Below, piece after piece: positions 7,816 through 46,838 of a DNA stretch of 64,000 bases (position 1 is its first letter; the number at the start of each line of letters is the position of its first letter). The notes under the pieces are model-generated. The model worked only from the letters and a program-made list of their open reading frames with translations, was not told where the DNA came from and ran no database searches. The stretch covers positions 310,001 to 374,000 of the forward strand of contig JAQJDB010000007.1 in NCBI GenBank assembly GCA_032139905.1. The letters are read 5' to 3'. This DNA comes from Nitrospira sp. MA-1 (GTDB taxonomy: Bacteria > Nitrospirota > Nitrospiria > Nitrospirales > UBA8639). The translations under genes were made by a program, and so were the position numbers.

Positions 7816-9288
7816 TTAATGCGCATGTTTGGCTGTGGCATCTGTATGGTGAGTTTCGCTCCATGACAGAGGTGACCCTTGCTTCATACGAAGGATAATG
7901 TTTTGAACCTGTTCGAAGTCTTCAAGCGGATTGCCCTGTAAAACAAGAAAACTGGCTTCATATCCCTCGTCCAATCGTCCAATTTTCCTTGAAGGAAAAA
8001 TAGTTTGAGGAGTGGTCTCACTCCACATTTTCAGTAAGGTCAGATTGTCAAAAATTCCCATGTGATGAAGGTGAAGTGCTTCCGCCAGGGAAGTTTCCGC
8101 ATGGTCGCTTCCGATGGCAATGGTGACCCCGGCCTGATGCAGTAACTTGAGGTTTTCCATCTGAATTCTCTTGGCGACCTCAAGGACATTTTTCACGGGT
8201 GGCGGTTGGTGCTCTTGGGAATTTGCAGGAGAGTGGGGATTCGCGTCCGTCTTGGTATGATGTCCTGCCGGGTGAAAGTGCTCGGCGACGGTCGTCGTGG
8301 CAATCACGGTCCGGTGTGTGGCCGCCAGTTGGGCATCTTCTTGAGTTAATCGCACGGCTGACTCTTGGTCGGGCGAAGGAAGGAACCACCCTGGGAGATG
8401 GGCGATCTCATCCACATGATTCTTGATGGCCGTTCGAAAGTCATCAACTGTTTCAATATGTGCGGAAACACGCAGGTTTTGCTGGTGCGCACGCGTGACA
8501 ATCGGCTCGATAAGCTGCGGATTCAGGCCGCTCCGAAACCCATGAGTGGCGGAGCGGGTGCCGTGTTCAAAATGTTTCGAGTCGGCAAGATAGAGCTTAA
8601 TGAAATCCGGCTTGGTCGCCATGATGGCCGGCCAGTAGGTTTCCACATCCTTCAGAGAGGAAAGAGCAAAGTAAGCTCGCCCGTTGAACCATCCTTTTTC
8701 ACGTTTGCCAATGACCGGTTCATAACGATGGGTGCGAAGTATGTCTTCGTATAGAGCAATGGGATGACCGCGTTTCCCGGTCAGACCGGCATGGGCAAAG
8801 ATCGCATCAATGGTCTCCGGTGTGTTGAGTTTTCCGTCGATTTGCTCAACAAACTCGGGAATGTCGGTGGTATTTTTTACATAAAAAATACCATCCCGGA
8901 CATAATGATTGATGACCTGATCGATGTTCCAGGCACCTTCGACGTTGTGGGTGTGGGCTTCGCCAAACGGTGGCACGACAAACCCGCCTTTCAGGTCAAT
9001 GGTCTGTTCAACAACCTTGGGCCGGAGGCGGGTAAGTGAGCCATCGACCGCATACCAGGTATCCCTGGTGAAGCCTTGTCCATCAAACCATTGGCCATTG
9101 ATAAATTCATAGGTTTTGGCAGTCTTCCGGTTGTCGAAAGATTCGATATTGGTGGTTGGTGGGGAATGAGTGGGAATGCTACATCCCATCAATCCCAGTC
9201 CACTAATGAGTAACAGGATGGTCAAAGACAACAGGGTGTATGGTGTCTGTTGACTCTGAATCCATTTTCTTTCGCCCTGAATAATCAT
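7816..9288 (-). CDS. Amidohydrolase-family lipoprotein
   Basis: A 490-residue metal-dependent hydrolase. The GEAHTHN motif supplies the first metal ligands of the amidohydrolase barrel, and a late GSDHAE segment supplies the catalytic aspartate. Before the barrel there is a hydrophobic stretch ending in LMGC, a lipobox, so it is probably lipid-anchored in the periplasm. For that reason the ATG at 9288 is chosen; longer starts would place the signal deep inside the protein and overlap exbB. A His-rich insertion (HFHPAGHH and following) is unusual. It lies between exbB and the receptor, suggesting that it processes the imported ligand. The substrate is unknown. Confidence 0.8.
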   Translation of the reverse strand: MIIQGERKWIQSQQTPYTLLSLTILLLISGLGLMGCSIPTHSPPTTNIESFDNRKTAKTYEFINGQWFDGQGFTRDTWYAVDGSLTRLRPKVVEQTIDLKGGFVVPPFGEAHTHNVEGAWNIDQVINHYVRDGIFYVKNTTDIPEFVEQIDGKLNTPETIDAIFAHAGLTGKRGHPIALYEDILRTHRYEPVIGKREKGWFNGRAYFALSSLKDVETYWPAIMATKPDFIKLYLADSKHFEHGTRSATHGFRSGLNPQLIEPIVTRAHQQNLRVSAHIETVDDFRTAIKNHVDEIAHLPGWFLPSPDQESAVRLTQEDAQLAATHRTVIATTTVAEHFHPAGHHTKTDANPHSPANSQEHQPPPVKNVLEVAKRIQMENLKLLHQAGVTIAIGSDHAETSLAEALHLHHMGIFDNLTLLKMWSETTPQTIFPSRKIGRLDEGYEASFLVLQGNPLEDFEQVQNIILRMKQGSPLSWSETHHTDATAKHAH

Positions 9289-9397
9289 GCCTGGAGGCTC
9301 CAAGCATGCTAAATGAATGAACCTTCTGAGTTTGGCTACGATTTCTCTGCTTTGTTGCTGTGGGTTGTCCATGCCGTTCGTAAGCTGAAGGTGGGAA

Positions 9398-10012: not shown

Positions 10013-10903
10013 TTAACTGTTCAGGTCAAATTTAATGGGAATGTCGACCCATTTGGCTATGGGGATGTTCCCGTCTTTCGCCGGCTGAAATTTCCAGTTT
10101 TTAATGGCTTCCTGGGCAGCCAGATCTAACGCCTCATGACCGCAGCTCTTTCGAATTTCCACCTGGCTGGGAGCGCCATCGGTGTTAATCAATGTTCGCA
10201 CAATGACCGTCCCCTCCCACCCAGACTCACGCGCCACACGAGGATAGAGTGGTTTGGTCGAGGCGACAATTCTCGGCTTGGACGTTGAGGATCCGGCTGC
10301 CATCGCCGGCGGAGTTTTTAATGCCGGACGAGCCGACGGGTTTGGCGGGGGAGGCAGTGTGTGCTGCGCTATTGGTTGACGATTGTTCATGTGCATGGGT
10401 GTCCTGGCAGGGGGTTGTTCCCGCTGCGGTGTCGCCGGTGAAAGCTGAGGTCTTTGCCGGTGTTGAGGAGGAACGGCCATTTTCATCATCTGACGACTCT
10501 GTATGGCCTGCACCGTTCGTGTGTCTTTGAGCATGGGCTTTGCCTGAGGAAGAGGCGGCGGAGCCAGGGGTTTGGAAGGTGTCGGTTTAATTGATGCCTG
10601 CATCGGTGTCGCCGGCATGGCTGGCGTAGGTTGGGTCCGGGGAGACGGTGGCGTGGGTTGTGCAAAATCCGGTTGGGGTGGTGTCAGAGGTTTCGTGGGC
10701 GGTTGTGGGGTGGGACTGATTTCCTGGAGAGCCGGAACCAATGTCACCTGGACTGTTGGGGTGAGGTCTTTAACTTCAGGGGGACTTGGATAATACGTCA
10801 GGGCGGCAAGAATTCCTGCATGAAGAATAACGCTTCCCAAGGCGCTCAGGAGAAAAATTCGATTATTGAAATTGGAAGAGGAATCTTCAAACGTGGAGTT
10901 CAC
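10013..10903 (-). CDS. tonB: TonB energy-transducing protein
   Basis: A 296-residue TonB. An N-terminal membrane anchor (about residues 15-38, with a VILHAGILAAL segment like the SxxxH anchor of TonB) leads to a very proline-rich periplasmic linker (about 50-200). The C-terminal TonB domain holds the KPLYPRVARESGWEGTVIV motif and ends in IPIKFDLNS. It transmits energy from ExbB-ExbD to the receptor. Its start overlaps the end of the TPR gene by four bases, indicating translational coupling. Confidence 0.92.
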   Translation of the reverse strand: MNSTFEDSSSNFNNRIFLLSALGSVILHAGILAALTYYPSPPEVKDLTPTVQVTLVPALQEISPTPQPPTKPLTPPQPDFAQPTPPSPRTQPTPAMPATPMQASIKPTPSKPLAPPPLPQAKPMLKDTRTVQAIQSRQMMKMAVPPQHRQRPQLSPATPQREQPPARTPMHMNNRQPIAQHTLPPPPNPSARPALKTPPAMAAGSSTSKPRIVASTKPLYPRVARESGWEGTVIVRTLINTDGAPSQVEIRKSCGHEALDLAAQEAIKNWKFQPAKDGNIPIAKWVDIPIKFDLNS

Positions 10904-40202: not shown

Positions 40203-40466
40203 ATGGCGTCTATAGCCACAACAAAACTTTCGTCCAAGGGCCAAGTCGTCATTCCGGAAGAGATACGAAAACAACTGGGCTTAAAAGAAGGCGATCAATT
40301 TGTGGTCGTGGGGCAAGATGACGCGGTCATTCTGAAAAGCATCAAAAAGCCTGTCTTGAATGAATTTGATTCGCTTATCGATAAGGCCAGGCGGCAGGCG
40401 AGGGACGCCAGGTTGAAGCGTTCGGACATTGGGAAGGCCATTGCCAAAGTCAGAACCACTTCATGA
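40203..40466 (+). CDS. AbrB/MazE-type antitoxin
   Basis: An 87-residue protein with an N-terminal swapped-hairpin AbrB/SpoVT DNA-binding domain: TKLSSKGQVVIPEEIRKQLGLKEGDQF is the signature. The C-terminal helical part would bind and neutralise the toxin. The toxin gene overlaps its end by four bases (ATGA), giving tight coupling. Excellent ribosome site AAGGAGG. Confidence 0.9.
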   Translation: MASIATTKLSSKGQVVIPEEIRKQLGLKEGDQFVVVGQDDAVILKSIKKPVLNEFDSLIDKARRQARDARLKRSDIGKAIAKVRTTS

Positions 40467-40876
40467 GGCTCGTCCTTGACACCAATGTCTTTATTTCTGG
40501 TGTGTTTTTCGCTGGACCGCCTTTTGATATTCTGAAATCTTGGAGAGTTGGCCAAATTGAAATTGTCGTCTCTGCTGAAATTCTTGACGAATACCGACGA
40601 GTTGGAGTTGAGCTGTCCGAGAAATACACAGAAGTTGACCTTACTCCGTTTCTCGAGCTTCTGATCTCCCATGCCATCGTCGTTCATGCACCCCCCTTGG
40701 ATGAACGTGTGTGCTCCGATCCTGATGATGATAAATTTATGGCTTGTGCTCTGGCAGGCCGGTCAAAATTTATTTGCAGTGGTGATAAGGCCCTCCTGAA
40801 GATATCGGGATACAAGGGGATTTCGGTCGTGACACCCAGAGTATTCGTGGATCAATACCTGCCACAAAAGAAATAA
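40463..40876 (+). CDS. PIN-domain toxin
   Basis: A 137-residue PIN nuclease of the putative toxin-antitoxin family COG1569. Acidic active-site residues are visible in LDTNVFISG (D6), the SAEILDEY segment, DPDDDKFMA and SGDKALL. Such toxins cleave RNA. Paired with the AbrB-type antitoxin and located about 720 bases before the cassette array. Confidence 0.9.
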   Translation: MRLVLDTNVFISGVFFAGPPFDILKSWRVGQIEIVVSAEILDEYRRVGVELSEKYTEVDLTPFLELLISHAIVVHAPPLDERVCSDPDDDKFMACALAGRSKFICSGDKALLKISGYKGISVVTPRVFVDQYLPQKK

Positions 40877-41596
40877 CCAATTGGTTGTTGACCTCCTTTT
40901 CCAACTAAGTCTCTTGGCAGGGGCCTGTCCTGTTGAAGTGTTTGACTATTTGACATAATTCGTGAGTTGAGCAAGGATTCGTCTGGAATACCAGCGGTTC
41001 TAATATGGTTCCGGCCTTACAGATTTAAAATGTGTTTCGGGAATTCATTTTAGCCTCTTCCATTAAAAAAGGCTGGCAGGTGAACGCATCGTATTTTGCT
41101 CACCAACTCTTGTGTCAACGTAATGTTCTATGTTGCCGGGACTCGCCCCGGCTGGCGAGGCCCTTTTGTTTCGGCAAAAGGTCCCAAAACCAGTGACGCC
41201 CCGTCTGGCCTCATTGAAAGGGGATGGACGCAAGGCTGAAGAGGGCGGACCAACTCGCTCCGCTCAAACAAGGCCCGCCAGCGGATGAGAGCGTCCATCT
41301 CTAGGGCCAGACGGCAGGCGTCGGGCTATAAGTGGTACTTTTAGAAACGCTCATACTAAGAACGAGGAGCTAAAAATTCTGCATGATTCGTTTGGAGGCT
41401 GGCGGATGGTTTCATCATCTTTCTTGATGCGGAAAGCAGGGAAGACGGACGGGACTTGCAGCCTTTTGTCTTCAAAAACGGAATGTGGGTTGGTTCTAAG
41501 GTATGAGAAACATGAAGGAATCGCAGTCAAATGGATTTGGACTTGCCCGGATAAAATGCATAAGCGAGCGAGCTTTACAGACCAATATACTCACTA
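40877..41596. other. Gene-free segment preceding the cassette array
   Basis: About 720 bases without a convincing gene. A second promoter-like pair, TTGAAG (40933) and CATAAT (40954), resembles that of the toxin-antitoxin operon. A strongly palindromic element occupies 41138-41322. A 63-codon plus-strand frame (41406-41597) ends exactly at the first cassette boundary but has no ribosome site. No integrase gene or attI site can be identified. Confidence 0.45.
41138..41322. repeat. Nested palindromic element, possible dispersed repeat or structured RNA
   Basis: Several inverted repeats are nested or adjacent. CTCGCC (41142-41147) pairs with GGCGAG (41154-41159). CCTTTTG (41162-41168) pairs with CAAAAGG (41175-41181). 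GACGCCCCGTCTGGCC (41195-41210) pairs imperfectly with the complement at 41305-41322, enclosing GATGGACGC (41223-41231), which pairs with GCGTCCATC (41291-41299). The long arms suggest a folded RNA or a small non-autonomous mobile repeat. No ORF inside. Confidence 0.5.
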
Positions 41597-41636
41597 GTTA
41601 GATTCTTGCGTGCCGAAGAGGGAAGAGAAAATATAA

Positions 41637-42689
41637 ATGATGAATAAAGAACTTGAAAAGCTGTTTAATCCTCCATGGTTAGAATCAATTAAGAGACTCC
41701 AAAAGCAGACGGATCTTGCTATTTTAGCGTTACGAGAGTCTGAAGCTTTACGCTCCATCAAAACACTAGGTGAATCTGCCAGGCTGGCTTCTTTAGCATT
41801 TTGTGAATCGGACCTAATGAAGACTGCTCGGATGGTTGCAGAAAGCAGCAAACTGGCGTCGCTCGCGTTCCGCGAGTCAGATGCCATGAGGTTAATCAAA
41901 GAGATGACAGAATCAAGTCGCTTTGCTGCACTCGCATTGCAAGAATCAGAAGCAATGAAATCTTTCAGAGCTGTTGCGGAATCAACTAGATTATCTGCTA
42001 TTGCATTCCAGCAATCTGAGACGACAAAGCAACTCAAGTGTCTCGCTGAAACCAGCCAGCTAGCTTCTATTGCGCTAAAGCAATCGAAAGCTTTTGAAAA
42101 GTTGTCACAGCTCAGCAATCTGGAGTCATTTAAAGCTCTTTCTCGCTTGATAAATTCTCCGTTCCCTGAACAGGCATCTTTAGCGTTTGTGATAGATATG
42201 GCGTATTCAGAAGCGATTGACGACTCTCTTATAGAAATAGATGCTGAAATAAGAGAAGAAATATCGTCCGTAACTGACTTTAATGCGCTACCAGAAAAAA
42301 CAAAAAGTATCTTACTTTACCTGTATCACACCTATTTTTTGCCGGTTTTATTAAGCTGTTTGTCGGCATACGTAATGACAAATGCGGTTAAAGCTAAAAT
42401 AGAAACTGTTAGAGTAACCACGCCTGGTGAGGCGAGAGCTTTTGTTAGAGAGACCAACAGAAAATTCGATCGGTCTGCGTTAAAAGCGTTTCGTATCACA
42501 ACAGCTAATGCATTGAACTTTAGAGACAATTCCAGCATGAAATCTGAAATTATCACGACTCTGCCAGTTGGAACTTTGGTCGAAGTTATAGATAAATCCA
42601 ATCGGTCTTGGCTACTCGTTGAAGTCGAAATTGATGGTGAACTTGAGCAAGGATGGATTTTTAGACGTTACACAGCGTATTTCAGATGA
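41637..42689 (+). CDS. Cassette-borne protein with six 23-residue repeats and a C-terminal SH3-like domain
   Basis: A 350-residue protein carried by cassette 1. Residues 23-160 are six tandem copies of a 23-residue unit of the form ESxxLASLAFxESxxMKxxRxxA, predicted to form amphipathic helices. A hydrophobic stretch near 225-245 (LLYLYHTYFLPVLLSCLSAYV) may be a transmembrane helix. The C-terminus (about 285-350) resembles a bacterial SH3 domain (ALNFRDNSSMKSEIITTLPVGTLVEVIDKSNRSWLLVE split over its strands). The gene is AT-richer than the core genome. Function unknown; a role at the envelope is possible. Confidence 0.72.
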   Translation: MMNKELEKLFNPPWLESIKRLQKQTDLAILALRESEALRSIKTLGESARLASLAFCESDLMKTARMVAESSKLASLAFRESDAMRLIKEMTESSRFAALALQESEAMKSFRAVAESTRLSAIAFQQSETTKQLKCLAETSQLASIALKQSKAFEKLSQLSNLESFKALSRLINSPFPEQASLAFVIDMAYSEAIDDSLIEIDAEIREEISSVTDFNALPEKTKSILLYLYHTYFLPVLLSCLSAYVMTNAVKAKIETVRVTTPGEARAFVRETNRKFDRSALKAFRITTANALNFRDNSSMKSEIITTLPVGTLVEVIDKSNRSWLLVEVEIDGELEQGWIFRRYTAYFR

Positions 42690-42761
42690 ATCTAACTAAG
42701 CGCTGCTTTCGGATAAATTTTACGCTGGGCTCTAAATTTGCCGCAGAGCGCGGCGTTCAGC
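42690..42761 (+). other. attC site 1
   Basis: 72 bases. R'' ATCTAAC at 42690-42696, L'' GCGCTGC at 42700-42706, L' as GCAG (42743-42746) plus CGC (42749-42751) separated by two extrahelical bases, R' GTTCAGC at 42755-42761. The unpaired bases give the asymmetry that selects the recombining strand. It immediately follows the stop codon of the cassette 1 gene. Confidence 0.8.
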
Positions 42762-42954
42762 CGACCGCAGGCGGCGGACGGGGTGCTGACGGAGTTGACG
42801 GGGGCCGTGGCTGCTCGACGTGAAATAGAGGGGAATTGATGAGCGGTCGGCTGAACAGAGTCGTGTCTGGCCGTGCGTTCCAGCCCCCCTGCGGCAACCG
42901 AACGCGCGGCTCGAATCGACGAGCCATCGGCCCGCCTCTCAGCCGCGCACTCTG
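42756..42954 (+). mobile_element. Cassette 2, about 199 bp with no substantial ORF
   Basis: The cassette opens with TTCAGCCGACCGC, and its complement GCGGTCGGCTGAAC at 42843-42856 starts the attC. No ORF over about 45 codons fits inside; a frame of 43 codons beginning at the ATG near 42839 runs through the attC into the next cassette. A near-copy forms cassette 4. Such cassettes may carry a promoter or a small RNA. Confidence 0.75.
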
Positions 42955-42960
42955 TTATGC
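42850..42960 (+). other. attC site 2
   Basis: 111 bases. R'' GCTGAAC at 42850-42856 and R' GTTATGC at 42954-42960. AACAGAGT (42854-42861) pairs fully with ACTCTGTT (42949-42956), and an inner arm pairs GGCCGTGCGTTC (42869-42880) with GAACGCGCGGC (42900-42910). Confidence 0.75.
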
Positions 42961-42978
42961 CGCCTCGTAGGTCCGAAA

Positions 42979-43743
42979 ATGTCCAGTTCTCCTACTGACC
43001 ATCGCCCACTCCAGGGCGGCGTACTAATCATCGGCTCGCTCCTTTGGCGTGAAGATGACATCCGGTCAAAGTGGCGGAGCCGTCTAGATATGGAGCGAAA
43101 GCAGCGTATTCATGCTCCAATACGGTATGGCCGACTGTCTGCAAAAAACACCGATAGTCCGTCGTACACCATGGTTTTCGCGCGTTCCTGCGCGCGACCT
43201 CGGCGGCGTCTCGGCACAGCGTGGGCGGTCCCGTTTCGAACACCAACGGATGGGGAGGAGGAATTGAGGGTCGAAGCCTCGGAGCTTGCGCGGGCAGAGA
43301 CAAATCGCGCGACCTATAGTCAACTGTCTAATGACTGGTTTACCGTGGGCATCATTGTCAATCCACACAGCCCAATGCGCCGCGACATTCAGAAGTGGTG
43401 GGGCCGAGTCTATGGGCAAATTCGGGATGATCACGACCTTCGACGTATCCATCTGAAGTCTGAAGGATCCATCATCACTCGTGACGGCTGTGTTCGCGTA
43501 TCGTGGCCGGACATCGTGGAAAGTGGCGGCACGCTCGATTACGATTACCTGCTCGCCACGCCAACAGTCCCGGAGATCAGCGGTGGTCGGTATCCAACCG
43601 TGCGGCAGATCGCGTCTTCTTGGGCTAGAAACGACGAGTACTTCCGACGAAACATTGATTCTTTCATAACCACGGCCCAGGACCGCGAGCTCCAGAAGCA
43701 CTTGGAGCGCGGGCGTTCAGTCGGCGGCATAACGGAGGTGTGA
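42979..43743 (+). CDS. Cassette-borne protein of unknown function
   Basis: A 254-residue soluble protein in cassette 3, unrecognised. The opening GGVLIIGSLLW followed by a PIRYGRLS segment loosely recalls the YGSL motif region of gamma-glutamylcyclotransferase-like folds, but this is not enough to assign it. Its coding sequence reaches into the attC R'' box; the stop codon follows ten bases later. It is flanked on both sides by the two related ORF-less cassettes. Confidence 0.65.
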   Translation: MSSSPTDHRPLQGGVLIIGSLLWREDDIRSKWRSRLDMERKQRIHAPIRYGRLSAKNTDSPSYTMVFARSCARPRRRLGTAWAVPFRTPTDGEEELRVEASELARAETNRATYSQLSNDWFTVGIIVNPHSPMRRDIQKWWGRVYGQIRDDHDLRRIHLKSEGSIITRDGCVRVSWPDIVESGGTLDYDYLLATPTVPEISGGRYPTVRQIASSWARNDEYFRRNIDSFITTAQDRELQKHLERGRSVGGITEV

Positions 43744-43851
43744 AGCTGACGGGCGGATTGTTCTGTCGCGGAGCTGCTGGTGAGAACTCGTATCGCAGTT
43801 CAGTTGGTGTTCCGCTGGTGTGGCCCGCAGCTTACACTAATTGCGTTCAGC
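43727..43851 (+). other. attC site 3
   Basis: 125 bases. R'' GCATAAC at 43727-43733 and R' GTTCAGC at 43845-43851. The inner arms GTGTGAAGCTGACGGGC (43738-43754) and GCCCGCAGCTTACAC (43823-43837) pair almost completely, with two extrahelical bases, as in a canonical attC hairpin. Confidence 0.82.
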
Positions 43852-44043
43852 CGACCGCAGGCGGCGGACGGGGTGCTGACAAAGTTGAAGGGGCTGTGGC
43901 TACTCGATGTGGGATAGATTGAAATTGATGAGCGGTCGGCTGAACAGAGACCTCGTCTGGCCGTGCGTACCCGCCGCCTTCGGCAGCCGAACGCGCGGCT
44001 CGAATCGACGGGCCTCCGCCCCACCACTCAATTGCGGACTCTA
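43846..44043 (+). mobile_element. Cassette 4, near-copy of ORF-less cassette 2
   Basis: About 198 bases beginning with the same TTCAGCCGACCGCAGGCGGC as cassette 2 and highly similar throughout, with differences clustered in the centre and near the 3' end. A 39-codon frame starting near 43928 (MSGRLNRDL...) shares its first seven residues with the corresponding frame of cassette 2. Confidence 0.75.
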
Positions 44044-44049
44044 TTAGCC
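43939..44049 (+). other. attC site 4 with an altered crossover base
   Basis: 111 bases. R'' GCTGAAC at 43939-43945. The R' box reads ATTAGCC at 44043-44049: the otherwise invariant G of the GTT crossover triplet is A. AACAGAG (43943-43949) pairs with CTCTATT with one mismatch. This site may recombine poorly. Confidence 0.68.
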
Positions 44050-44058
44050 CAAAAAAAC

Positions 44059-45183
44059 ATGGAACAAAAAGACAATAAATGGCCAGCTTCCAGGATAGTT
44101 CATCTGGTGGGAGGGTGTAGGGCAATAAATAATCAAGACCCAAAAGTTCAATTTGATCCACATACACTTGGGGGAAAACAAGCGCAATTTCAAATAAATC
44201 AATATGGTGCCATTTTCCACAGCCTGGAATCATTAGGGTTCGGCGTTATTGGTGTTGATTTCTATTCACATTTTTTGGAAGCAAAAGGAAGTGTACCTCC
44301 TAATTGGAGGTCATATCACCGAACAAGTCATACTTCATGGCCCACGGAAGAGGTCGCTCAAAAGTGGAGGAATATTGGCCATGCAGCATTTAAACAAAAA
44401 AATGGGAAATTATGGGACATTGCAAGTCGAATTGGATACCAATTAAGAGTGTGTGATTGGAGGCTCAGGGAAATTTCAGAAGCATACTGCAATCAACTTA
44501 TCGCACAAATTCAATTAAAGAGCTTTAAGGTCGGTCAAAAATATGAGGATGGTTTTTCTTGGTTATCTTATTTATCTATTCAGTCATTTTTAGTCGATGC
44601 CTGCATACTGAGGGATTATTTATCTGAATTCATGGCGGATTTTATTTACAACGGCACGGTTGAGTTGGGTAACCTCAGAATTACTGCTATGGGTGCCTTC
44701 AAAAAAAAGGTGTTAAATAAAATCACCGAACCTGACGGTTTTACACGAGAACTCATTTATGCAACCAGCAATGGTGGCTGGTTAACGTTACTTGGCAATT
44801 ACAGAGATATGGTCGTGCATTCTGCTCCACTTGTCCAAGCAGAAAGAAAATTATTTTCAGTATGTAATGAACTTAAAATTATTGGTGGTGGGAGCATGCC
44901 TATCATCTGTTGTCCAATTCCAGAAAACCCTGATGAAATTTCAAGCTCACGCTCAACAGGTAGCCATTTTGAAGATTTTGAAAAACAATTCAATGTTTTT
45001 GTCGAGGCTGCCAAAGGGGACATTCCAATGATTGATGGGCTGGACTATGCGAGTGCAGCTCTTGGTAATCTTGCAAAATTATCTGAAAAAGCGGCAGAAA
45101 AATCTCCAATTGTTCCGGAAATGATGGTAATTGACTCTTCTAATATTATTGGTGAAATAAAAACCACTAGACATATGGGCTAA
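44059..45183 (+). CDS. Cassette-borne protein, possibly HEPN-like
   Basis: A 374-residue protein in cassette 5. The open frame extends back to 43963 but that part is attC sequence read as protein, so the ATG at 44059 is used. It is strikingly AT-rich compared with flanking DNA, indicating foreign origin. Residues around NYRDMVVHSAPL fit the R-D-x3-H pattern of HEPN ribonuclease or HEPN-like helical bundles found in defence genes; the rest is unrecognised. The stop codon TAA lies within the attC R'' box. Confidence 0.65.
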   Translation: MEQKDNKWPASRIVHLVGGCRAINNQDPKVQFDPHTLGGKQAQFQINQYGAIFHSLESLGFGVIGVDFYSHFLEAKGSVPPNWRSYHRTSHTSWPTEEVAQKWRNIGHAAFKQKNGKLWDIASRIGYQLRVCDWRLREISEAYCNQLIAQIQLKSFKVGQKYEDGFSWLSYLSIQSFLVDACILRDYLSEFMADFIYNGTVELGNLRITAMGAFKKKVLNKITEPDGFTRELIYATSNGGWLTLLGNYRDMVVHSAPLVQAERKLFSVCNELKIIGGGSMPIICCPIPENPDEISSSRSTGSHFEDFEKQFNVFVEAAKGDIPMIDGLDYASAALGNLAKLSEKAAEKSPIVPEMMVIDSSNIIGEIKTTRHMG

Positions 45184-45254
45184 CCAGGCGCTGTACCAGA
45201 CTGGTTAAGGCTCCGTGGCGCTAAGGCCGCAAGTTCGGGGCTGGCTGGTTAGCA
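45178..45254 (+). other. attC site 5
   Basis: 77 bases. R'' GGCTAAC at 45178-45184 and R' GTTAGCA at 45248-45254. GCTAACCAG (45179-45187) pairs perfectly with CTGGTTAGC (45245-45253). Confidence 0.8.
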
Positions 45255-45272
45255 TCCGATTGGACACCGCCA

Positions 45273-45635
45273 ATGAAGATTGTCGAATTTGCTTTTATCG
45301 TATATCCAGCCTCGGATCTGGCGCGGTCCCGTGCCTTTTATGAGGGCGTTCTCGGGCTCACCAGCGCGACTTCCATGGATCTGGCCGACGGATTCTGGGT
45401 CGAGTATGAGATCGGTCCTCACACGCTGGCCATCGGCAAAGAACCATTCCTGAAGCCCTCGGGCGATGGTCCTCAGCTTGTGCTGGAAGTGGACGATTTT
45501 GACAAGACGATAGAACATCTCAGACATCACAACGTGCAGTTTGCCCTTGAGCCTTTTGACCTTCCTCATTGCAGGGCAGCAATTGTTCTGGACCCCGACG
45601 GGAACAAGCTTGGTATCCATAGACGAAAGACCTAA
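45273..45635 (+). CDS. VOC (glyoxalase/bleomycin-resistance) family protein
   Basis: A 120-residue single VOC module-pair protein: SDLARSRAFYEGVLGL near the start and AIVLDPDGNKLGIHR at the end are the family signatures. Members bind metals and act as dioxygenases, isomerases or antibiotic-binding proteins; this one cannot be placed further. It is the ORF of the last readable cassette (starting at 45249). Its stop codon lies in an R''-like box ACCTAAC (45630-45636), but no matching second half follows. Confidence 0.85.
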   Translation: MKIVEFAFIVYPASDLARSRAFYEGVLGLTSATSMDLADGFWVEYEIGPHTLAIGKEPFLKPSGDGPQLVLEVDDFDKTIEHLRHHNVQFALEPFDLPHCRAAIVLDPDGNKLGIHRRKT

Positions 45636-45702
45636 CGAATTTGGATTATGGTTTAAGTATGTTGGTGAAAGTTTGAAGGTAGGGTATCAGGAGCCTATCC
45701 CC

Positions 45703-46506
45703 TCAGTTCGACTGATCGTGCTCCGGGAATTGCAACGCCGCGCATGCGAGGCCGCCGTCGACCATTAGGACCGCCCCGGTCATGTAGCTTGAGGCATCGG
45801 AGGCCAGTAGGAGTAGTGGGCCGTTGTATTCTTCGACCTCCGCGAAACGCTTCAGTGGCACCGATCCTACCGCTGCCCTACCATCTGGGGTCTTCAGAAA
45901 CTCCCTGACCATATTGGTCATAATGCCACCGGGAGCAAGCGAATTCACTCGAATCCCGTATGGCGCTAACTCGGCGGCAAGTGCTCGAGAGAGATGGTTT
46001 ACTCCCGCCTTCGCGGTGGCGTATGGCACCAGGTTGGGTTGAGGGCGGTGTGAAGTGGCCGATGAGATGTTGATCAGACTACCAGGAATCTCGTTGGCGA
46101 TCATGTGCTTGGCCACTGCCTGACACATTAGCCATGTGCCTTTGAGATCGACGTTGAGCAGCAGGTCCCACTCTTCTTCGGAAACTTCCAGAGCCTGTCG
46201 CCACAAAGCGACTCCCGCCGAGTTTACTAACACGTGGATATCGCCGAACGCTTCGATCACTTCCGCCACGCCGGCGTCGACAGCCTTGGTCTGTGAGATA
46301 TCGACGACCTGGCTTATCGATTGACCACCCACCTCTTCAATCCTAGCGGCTGTTTCAGCCAGTCCATCCTGGTTGACGTCGAACAGTGCGACTCGGGCAC
46401 CTGCGCGCGCGAGCGTTTTGGCGCCATGTTGGCCCAAACCCGAAGCAGCCCCTGTGACGATCGCATTCTTTCCTTCAAGCGTGAACAACGATTTCAGAAA
46501 CTGCAT
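45703..46506 (-). CDS. Short-chain dehydrogenase/reductase
   Basis: A 267-residue classical SDR. The NAD(P) site is TGAASGLG at about 19-26, the structural NSAG motif follows, and the catalytic serine (INISSATS) and YATAK complete the set. FDVN after beta-2 suggests NAD preference. The substrate is unknown. It is on the strand opposite to the cassette genes and lies between the last readable cassette and an additional attC-like site, so it could be an inverted cassette cargo or an unrelated insertion. Confidence 0.9.
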   Translation of the reverse strand: MQFLKSLFTLEGKNAIVTGAASGLGQHGAKTLARAGARVALFDVNQDGLAETAARIEEVGGQSISQVVDISQTKAVDAGVAEVIEAFGDIHVLVNSAGVALWRQALEVSEEEWDLLLNVDLKGTWLMCQAVAKHMIANEIPGSLINISSATSHRPQPNLVPYATAKAGVNHLSRALAAELAPYGIRVNSLAPGGIMTNMVREFLKTPDGRAAVGSVPLKRFAEVEEYNGPLLLLASDASSYMTGAVLMVDGGLACAALQFPEHDQSN

Positions 46507-46778: not shown

Positions 46779-46838
46779 GCCTAACACGCTGGGCTCAAAC
46801 AGGGGCGGTCCCTTACTTGAGCGTCAGTCCGGTTGGGC
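46779..46838 (+). other. Additional compact attC-like site (60 bp)
   Basis: R'' GCCTAAC (46779-46785) and R' GTTGGGC (46832-46838) both match the consensus boxes. GCTCAA and TTGAGC pair inside, and AGGG with CCCT form the terminal stem. At 60 bases this is the classic size. The cassette start complementary to its R'' was not found upstream. Confidence 0.6.

Follow-up and report, generated by a model that had tools for sequence, protein, structure and literature searches.

The 64,000-nt stretch of the Nitrospira sp. MA-1 chromosome analysed here (the window; contig JAQJDB010000007.1 of assembly GCA_032139905.1) contains, at a fixed chromosomal place between purH-purD-sua5 and a glyoxalase gene, five linked integron gene cassettes on the plus strand (41598-45248), each with an R'' box that complements its own first bases. 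Every segment opens with TT and four further bases, and the exact complement of that start, followed by C, sits 55-125 bp ahead of the next start (Table 1). The five box pairs had been quoted in an earlier note made from the sequence of the window, and all of them are present and exact. Ahead of the first cassette lie a predicted attI recombination site and a remnant of an integrase gene, intI. The bacterium belongs to Nitrospirales, an order of nitrite oxidisers. Other genomes are referred to by number, G000 being the window's own.

Table 1. Features of the cassette array and its upstream region, in window positions (ORF, open reading frame).
Feature	Position	Strand	Description
Deletion-junction segment	41325..41389	+	Intergenic repeat to intI remnant; homologous in G000, G030, G034 and G038 (69-88% identity, 0-1 of 2000 shuffles)
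intI 3'-end remnant	41390..41449	+	Last ~60 nt (~20 codons), on the cassette strand; aligns with the intI tail of G196 (0/2000 shuffles)
Spacer (conserved leader), intI remnant to attI	41450..41579	+	Conserved in relatives and in intI-bearing G196
Predicted attI site	41580..41601	+	22-bp motif GACCAATATACTCACTAGTTAG; crossover between G41597 and T41598; adjoins first cassette
Cassette 1	41598..42755	+	Start TTAGAT; R'' ATCTAAC at 42690
Cassette 1 ORF	41637..42689	+	350 aa; C-terminal bacterial SH3 domain (SH3_3), Pfam PF08239, 4.7e-09
attC of cassette 1	42690..42761	+	R''/R' boxes; no covariance-model match
Cassette 2	42756..42954	+	ORF-less, ~200 bp; start TTCAGC; R'' GCTGAAC at 42850; 14-bp terminal inverted repeat around first ~100 bp (42755-42768 / 42843-42856)
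attC of cassette 2	42850..42960	+	R''/R' and AGAGTC/GACTCT stem; partial model match 42909-42950
Cassette 3	42955..43845	+	Start TTATGC; R'' GCATAAC at 43727
Cassette 3 ORF	42979..43743	+	254 aa; no assigned function
attC of cassette 3	43727..43851	+	R''/R' boxes, chain test
Cassette 4	43846..44043	+	Another copy of the ORF-less sequence (84% identity with cassette 2); start TTCAGC; R'' GCTGAAC at 43939
attC of cassette 4	43939..44049	+	Chain test and attC-model search; boundary A/TT, not G/TT
Cassette 5	44044..45248	+	Start TTAGCC; R'' GGCTAAC at 45178
Cassette 5 ORF	44059..45183	+	374 aa; no assigned function
attC of cassette 5	45178..45254	+	attC model 19.4 bits, E 0.006; model sets 3' end at 45265
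Terminal glyoxalase/VOC cassette	45249..45636	+	ORF 45273-45635, Pfam PF00903, 1.8e-13; R''-like ACCTAAC at 45630

The chain of cassettes was evaluated with 2000 first-order Markov replicates and 28 control segments of the window, requiring boxes of the RRRY/RYYY consensus with RRRY at the cassette start. Under this requirement the longest chain in the region was 5, which none of the 2000 replicates reached (a chain of 4 was reached twice), and the longest chain in the control segments was 2. When the consensus constraint was dropped, chance chains of 5-6 arose in 54 of 2000 replicates; the statement in the earlier note that random sequence would not give five such matches therefore holds for consensus boxes and fails without them. 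The minus strand likewise scores a chain of 5, because attC sites are near-palindromic. A stricter test that required the inner arms as well gave only 3 links, and scans for box pairs returned many false matches elsewhere.

Conservation of the ~160 bp ahead of the first cassette ends at the G/TT crossover, and it is exactly there that the relatives diverge. With up to 3 mismatches allowed, a search for the last 22 bases of this conserved leader, GACCAATATACTCACTAGTTRG, found 38 places in 29 of 236 Nitrospirales genomes; the reversed control pattern was found at 1. In G196, where it is identical, and in G094, G120 and G146, where it has 2-3 mismatches, the motif follows the 3' end of an intact intI of the same orientation at a distance of 155-210 bp. 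The intI of G120 carries one in-frame stop, and canonical cassettes and attC sites follow the motif in G196. Judged by its position and conservation, the segment 41580-41601 is the attI site of the array.

The intI remnant was seen at the DNA level only; a tblastn search for intI in the window returned nothing convincing. A remnant with the same end point is present in G030, G034 and G038, and a slightly longer one in G036; none was found in G029 and G033 by DNA comparison with the intI tail of G196. On the other side of the break, 65-75 nt are homologous in G000, G030, G034 and G038. In a purH-purD-sua5 tree (unrooted, one locus, six taxa), G000 grouped with G034 and G030 with G029, on different branches. 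Because the junction is common to these four genomes, with G000 and G030 on different branches, the intI deletion is ancestral and predates the split of these lineages, which comprise at least four sampled species. An intergenic repeat of ~200 bp (41130-41335; GCCCCGGC..GGCAAAAGG..GACGCCCC..GGCAGGCGTCGG) occupies the same locus in G030, G034 and G038, and has copies in L013 at about 9100-9320 and 10660-10860.

The orientation of the remnant places intI on the cassette strand with its 3' end towards attI, which is the reverse-oriented type. Of the 14 intI-attached Nitrospirales arrays (L152-L165), 13 have this arrangement, with the cassettes following the 3' end of the integrase gene in its own reading direction; the exception is G094:C1:362847. 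By these sequence comparisons, the locus is a decapitated, reverse-oriented chromosomal integron. The earlier note had labelled it a cluster of attC sites lacking an integrase (CALIN) in a Nitrospirota chromosome; this description was correct and incomplete, since the attI and the intI remnant directly upstream had been missed, and these point to an integron that lost its integrase and not to a stray attC cluster.

The genome (4.76 Mb, 7 contigs, 99.98% complete) yielded nothing over the cut-off of the TIGR02249 integron-integrase model, which extends to the whole genome the earlier observation that no intI is visible. The best matches below the cut-off were a XerD-like protein and XerC (between trmFO and hslVU), and other tyrosine recombinases also fell below it. 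No intI was found in 21 genomes of the window's genus, and within the family only G016 and G027, both of other genera, possess one.

The comparison with relatives that had been proposed along with the CALIN label revealed cassettes that differ completely between species within constant surroundings. In G029, G030 and G036, purH-purD-sua5 precedes the array and the glyoxalase gene follows it; in G038 sua5, array, glyoxalase and a short-chain dehydrogenase/reductase gene are on one contig, and for G033 and G034 the left side only is available. The glyoxalase is 95-96% identical in G029, G030 and G038, and the leader 75-83%. The first cassettes of seven species are mutually unrelated; apart from the ORF-less cassette, no significant similarity links them at the protein or DNA level. 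That cassette stands directly before the glyoxalase in G029, G030, G036 and G038, and cassette 5 intervenes in the window. G034, which shares the deletion end point, has a first cassette whose ends match perfectly (TTGGGC/GCCCAAC) and whose attC is canonical (41.5 bits). Across the genus the site is a hotspot whose flanks stay constant and whose contents change, an aspect absent from the earlier reading. That reading had named a segment unchanged in distant relatives and without attC matches above threshold as evidence against a CALIN; the contents differ, and attC matches exist. Between sua5 and the array, an AbrB/MazE-like and PIN-domain pair (40203-40876), likely a toxin-antitoxin system, is 96-99% identical in G030 and absent from the fetched G029 locus. 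A cassette protein at the syntenic locus of G033 (L062:2020-2850, G033:C504) is TIR-domain-like (Toll/interleukin-1 receptor) by eye.

A covariance model was built from 15 attC sites in arrays behind intact intI genes of other Nitrospirales genomes, with long loops shortened by hand, and the window was searched with it without filters. The match to the attC of cassette 5 (45178-45265) was the only clear one of five. Partial matches of 9.3 and 9.0 bits lay inside the two ORF-less attC sites, and the window search gave no match at 42690 or 43727. The covariance search suggested in the earlier note therefore recovered, with our own Nitrospirales model, one full and two partial matches of five. 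With the same model, intact intI-attached arrays scored 18-72 bits (training sites included), and syntenic or related arrays within the genus up to 46.7 bits; a whole-genome scan gave none below E 0.1. When the five sites were folded as DNA, z fell below -2 in 3 of 10 strands (the two strands of the cassette-2 attC, and the plus strand for cassette 5), which is not decisive, and an Rfam scan of the window had no match. Because our model fully recognises one of five, the attC sites of the window appear mostly divergent or decayed; they are supported by the box grammar and by comparison. The box pair GCCTAAC...GTTGGGC at 46779-46838 (13.1 bits) was rejected as an attC, as it scores on both strands, has no inner stem and by eye resembles intergenic repeats, of which it is probably part. 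Elsewhere in the genome, two partial model matches 600 bp apart (L182:1450-1560 and L183:1450-1560; G000:C1:100.8-101.5 kb) lie beside glyoxalase/VOC-like genes and are possibly a further decayed array.

The cargo consists of accessory genes: an SH3-domain protein, two proteins without recognisable function and a glyoxalase. None of 235 other Nitrospirales genomes encodes a relative of the cassette 1 or the cassette 5 protein, and viral contigs contain no relative of the latter either. The cassette 3 protein had no Pfam, PADLOC or confident NCBIfam match and found nothing useful in a PDB search; the cassette 5 protein had no Pfam match, and PADLOC, NCBIfam and PDB searches with it gave nothing useful. 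Relatives of the cassette 3 protein are at 30-37% identity only, and the cassette 5 protein has a 35% relative on an Acinetobacter plasmid; plasmids of unrelated bacteria carry distant relatives of both. The same glyoxalase gene closes the array in relatives, and its cassette, the sixth, has no readable attC 3' half. Two genes had been described as ending within their R'' boxes, and this is the case for ORF 44059-45183 and also for the glyoxalase, whose stop codon falls in ACCTAAC (45630-45636); the cassette 3 ORF overruns its own R'' by 10 nt.

Cassettes 2 and 4 had been listed in the earlier note as two GCTGAAC/GTTCAGC cassettes, with the boxes correctly read and their identity as copies of one ORF-less cassette missed. 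Within the family, 13 of 49 genomes contain copies; the intI-attached arrays examined contain none. ORF-less and ORF cassettes alternate in the window and in G030. Over 11 copies, 92.8% of cells in the 14-bp inverted repeat were paired, with two double changes and covariation only modestly above shuffles. The attC stem was paired in 85.9% across copies versus 32-43% when slid; its covariation was not beyond shuffles, and the RNAalifold consensus of the cassette did not return this stem and had almost no covariation. A scan restricted to simple sigma-70-type promoters gave no site on the plus strand from 41300 to 45900, either for a cassette promoter (Pc) or in the ORF-less cassette. Partial ORF-less copies also occur in a second cassette-like cluster of the same genome (L013:5680-10300; G000:C7:109.7-114.3 kb), after a HEAT-repeat-like gene and a RelBE-like toxin-antitoxin pair.

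Taken together, the locus is very probably what remains of a sedentary, reverse-oriented chromosomal integron whose intI was lost in an ancestor and which gained cassettes afterwards; we regard this as the best overall explanation. The comparison between species shows that an ancestor common to four or more of those sampled lost intI by deletion, except for its last ~20 codons, and kept attI and the cassettes. It also shows that, after this loss, different cassettes entered each species' locus at the attI crossover, and that the oldest part, the ORF-less cassette beside the glyoxalase cassette, stayed at the far end. That the cassettes entered after the loss follows from the deletion being shared and the cassettes next to attI not. 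The likeliest agent of the insertions is IntI acting in trans and encoded outside the resident genome, perhaps by a transient plasmid, a step to which we give about an even chance. The first cassette of G034, with its matching ends and canonical attC, looks as expected of an IntI-made insertion.

The main rival is that an intI-bearing donor lineage built the arrays and that crossovers in the conserved flanks imported them by homologous recombination into integrase-less recipients. The conservation of the glyoxalase and the leader noted above would allow this, and the repeated ORF-less cassettes offer extra homology. However, none of the 21 genomes of the genus has intI, the leader of G196 is too diverged from that of the window to make it a likely partner, and imports would have to cross over within ~200 bp to avoid restoring intI; we consider this origin rather unlikely. 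Less probable again is differential loss, in which a long ancestral array lost intI and the species kept different subsets through deletions between repeats. The arrays are indeed short, most attC sites look decayed, and the ORF-less direct repeats could mediate deletion. Survival from such an array is nevertheless disfavoured because cassettes 1 and 5 lack relatives in the other Nitrospirales genomes, cassette 3 has distant ones only and plasmids of unrelated bacteria carry distant relatives of cassettes 3 and 5; moreover, repeat-mediated deletion would not yield the precise joints of attI and cassette with matching ends in G000 and G034. It is very improbable that the locus is no integron and that elements resembling miniature inverted-repeat transposable elements (~100 bp, 14-bp inverted repeats) together with intergenic repeats give the box matches by chance. 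The perfect 14-bp repeat of the ORF-less element fits this view, as do the poor scores of most box pairs with the attC model, but the chain statistics, the attI common to intI-bearing genomes, the intI remnant and the canonical attC sites of the syntenic G034 array all speak against it.

Several observations also weigh against an ancestral loss of intI followed by cassette gain. The tree is unrooted and covers a single locus and six taxa, the first-cassette ends are imperfect in G029, G030, G033, G036 and G038, and several relatives' assemblies are incomplete, so that intI could be missed in some. The covariance model, trained on attC sites attached to intI, fully recognises only one of the five in the window, so that the other four may have decayed or may belong to an unusual type, and may have stopped recombining. 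No source of IntI in trans was identified, and action in trans is for this reason offered as an inferred step.

The attI motif occurs without intI elsewhere in the order. Among 30 motif loci examined for upstream intI, a full-length gene was present at 3 and a 3' fragment of it at 5, and no intI could be detected at 22 (one has only 180 nt upstream). In 8 of these 22 the covariance model (E below 0.02) supports an attC after the motif and in its orientation: G050, G229, G164, G034, G132 and G030, which have no intI at E 1e-50, and G188 and G161, which have intI or a fragment elsewhere. In G188 (L109, G188:C1:51258) the integrase-less attI is accompanied by a 36.7-bit attC, and intI lies elsewhere in the same chromosome, making this attI a natural candidate for integration in trans. 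Integrase-less attI sites are thus recurrent in Nitrospirales, and most of the examined attI loci of this type are orphan. It is conceivable, with somewhat less than an even chance, that an attI without a resident integrase remained a working insertion point throughout the divergence of the genus, served by foreign IntI in trans.

CALINs are usually regarded as degraded integrons. Here the attI, the remnant and the shared junction make the order of events readable, with the integrase lost first and cassettes gained later, and it becomes testable whether integrase-less arrays still exchange genes via the integrases of other cells. The motif provides a sequence-defined attI for an order in which no attI description was found, and orphan attI sites become directly searchable.

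CALINs and complete integrons occur in roughly equal numbers, and IntegronFinder 2.0 reported two of them in Nitrospira inopinata (PMC9024848). The present locus resembles a CALIN as defined by IntegronFinder in having several attC sites and no intI within reach; unlike a typical CALIN, it retains attI and an intI remnant and forms a hotspot at a fixed place throughout the genus. Outside class 1, attI is not among the features that IntegronFinder seeks. In the reverse-oriented sedentary integrons of Treponema, intI likewise reads towards attI in the cassette direction, and loss of intI with attC sites left behind has been described in T. phagedenis (PMC3607928). That study deems an array without intI static (PMC3607928), whereas here species with one and the same deletion have different contents. 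The ilvD integrons of Xanthomonas are likewise an ancestral platform at a fixed locus with an integrase that is often truncated or absent, and the same paper states that CALINs are mobilisable in trans by a functional IntI (PMC12444791). The intI-less X. citri pv. citri is uniform in its cassettes, which fits a frozen array (PMC12444791); the locus in the window is not uniform in this way. ORF-less cassettes can act as promoters or small RNAs, and the promoter cassettes of oral Treponema and sRNA-Xcc1 of Xanthomonas are, as here, small gene-free cassettes within an array (PMC6557892); unlike those, one conserved ~200-bp cassette with a 14-bp inverted repeat recurs here in arrays and across species. 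Compared with these systems, what appears to be new is the retained attI, the intI remnant with a deletion junction common to several species, and the turnover of cassettes after the integrase was lost.

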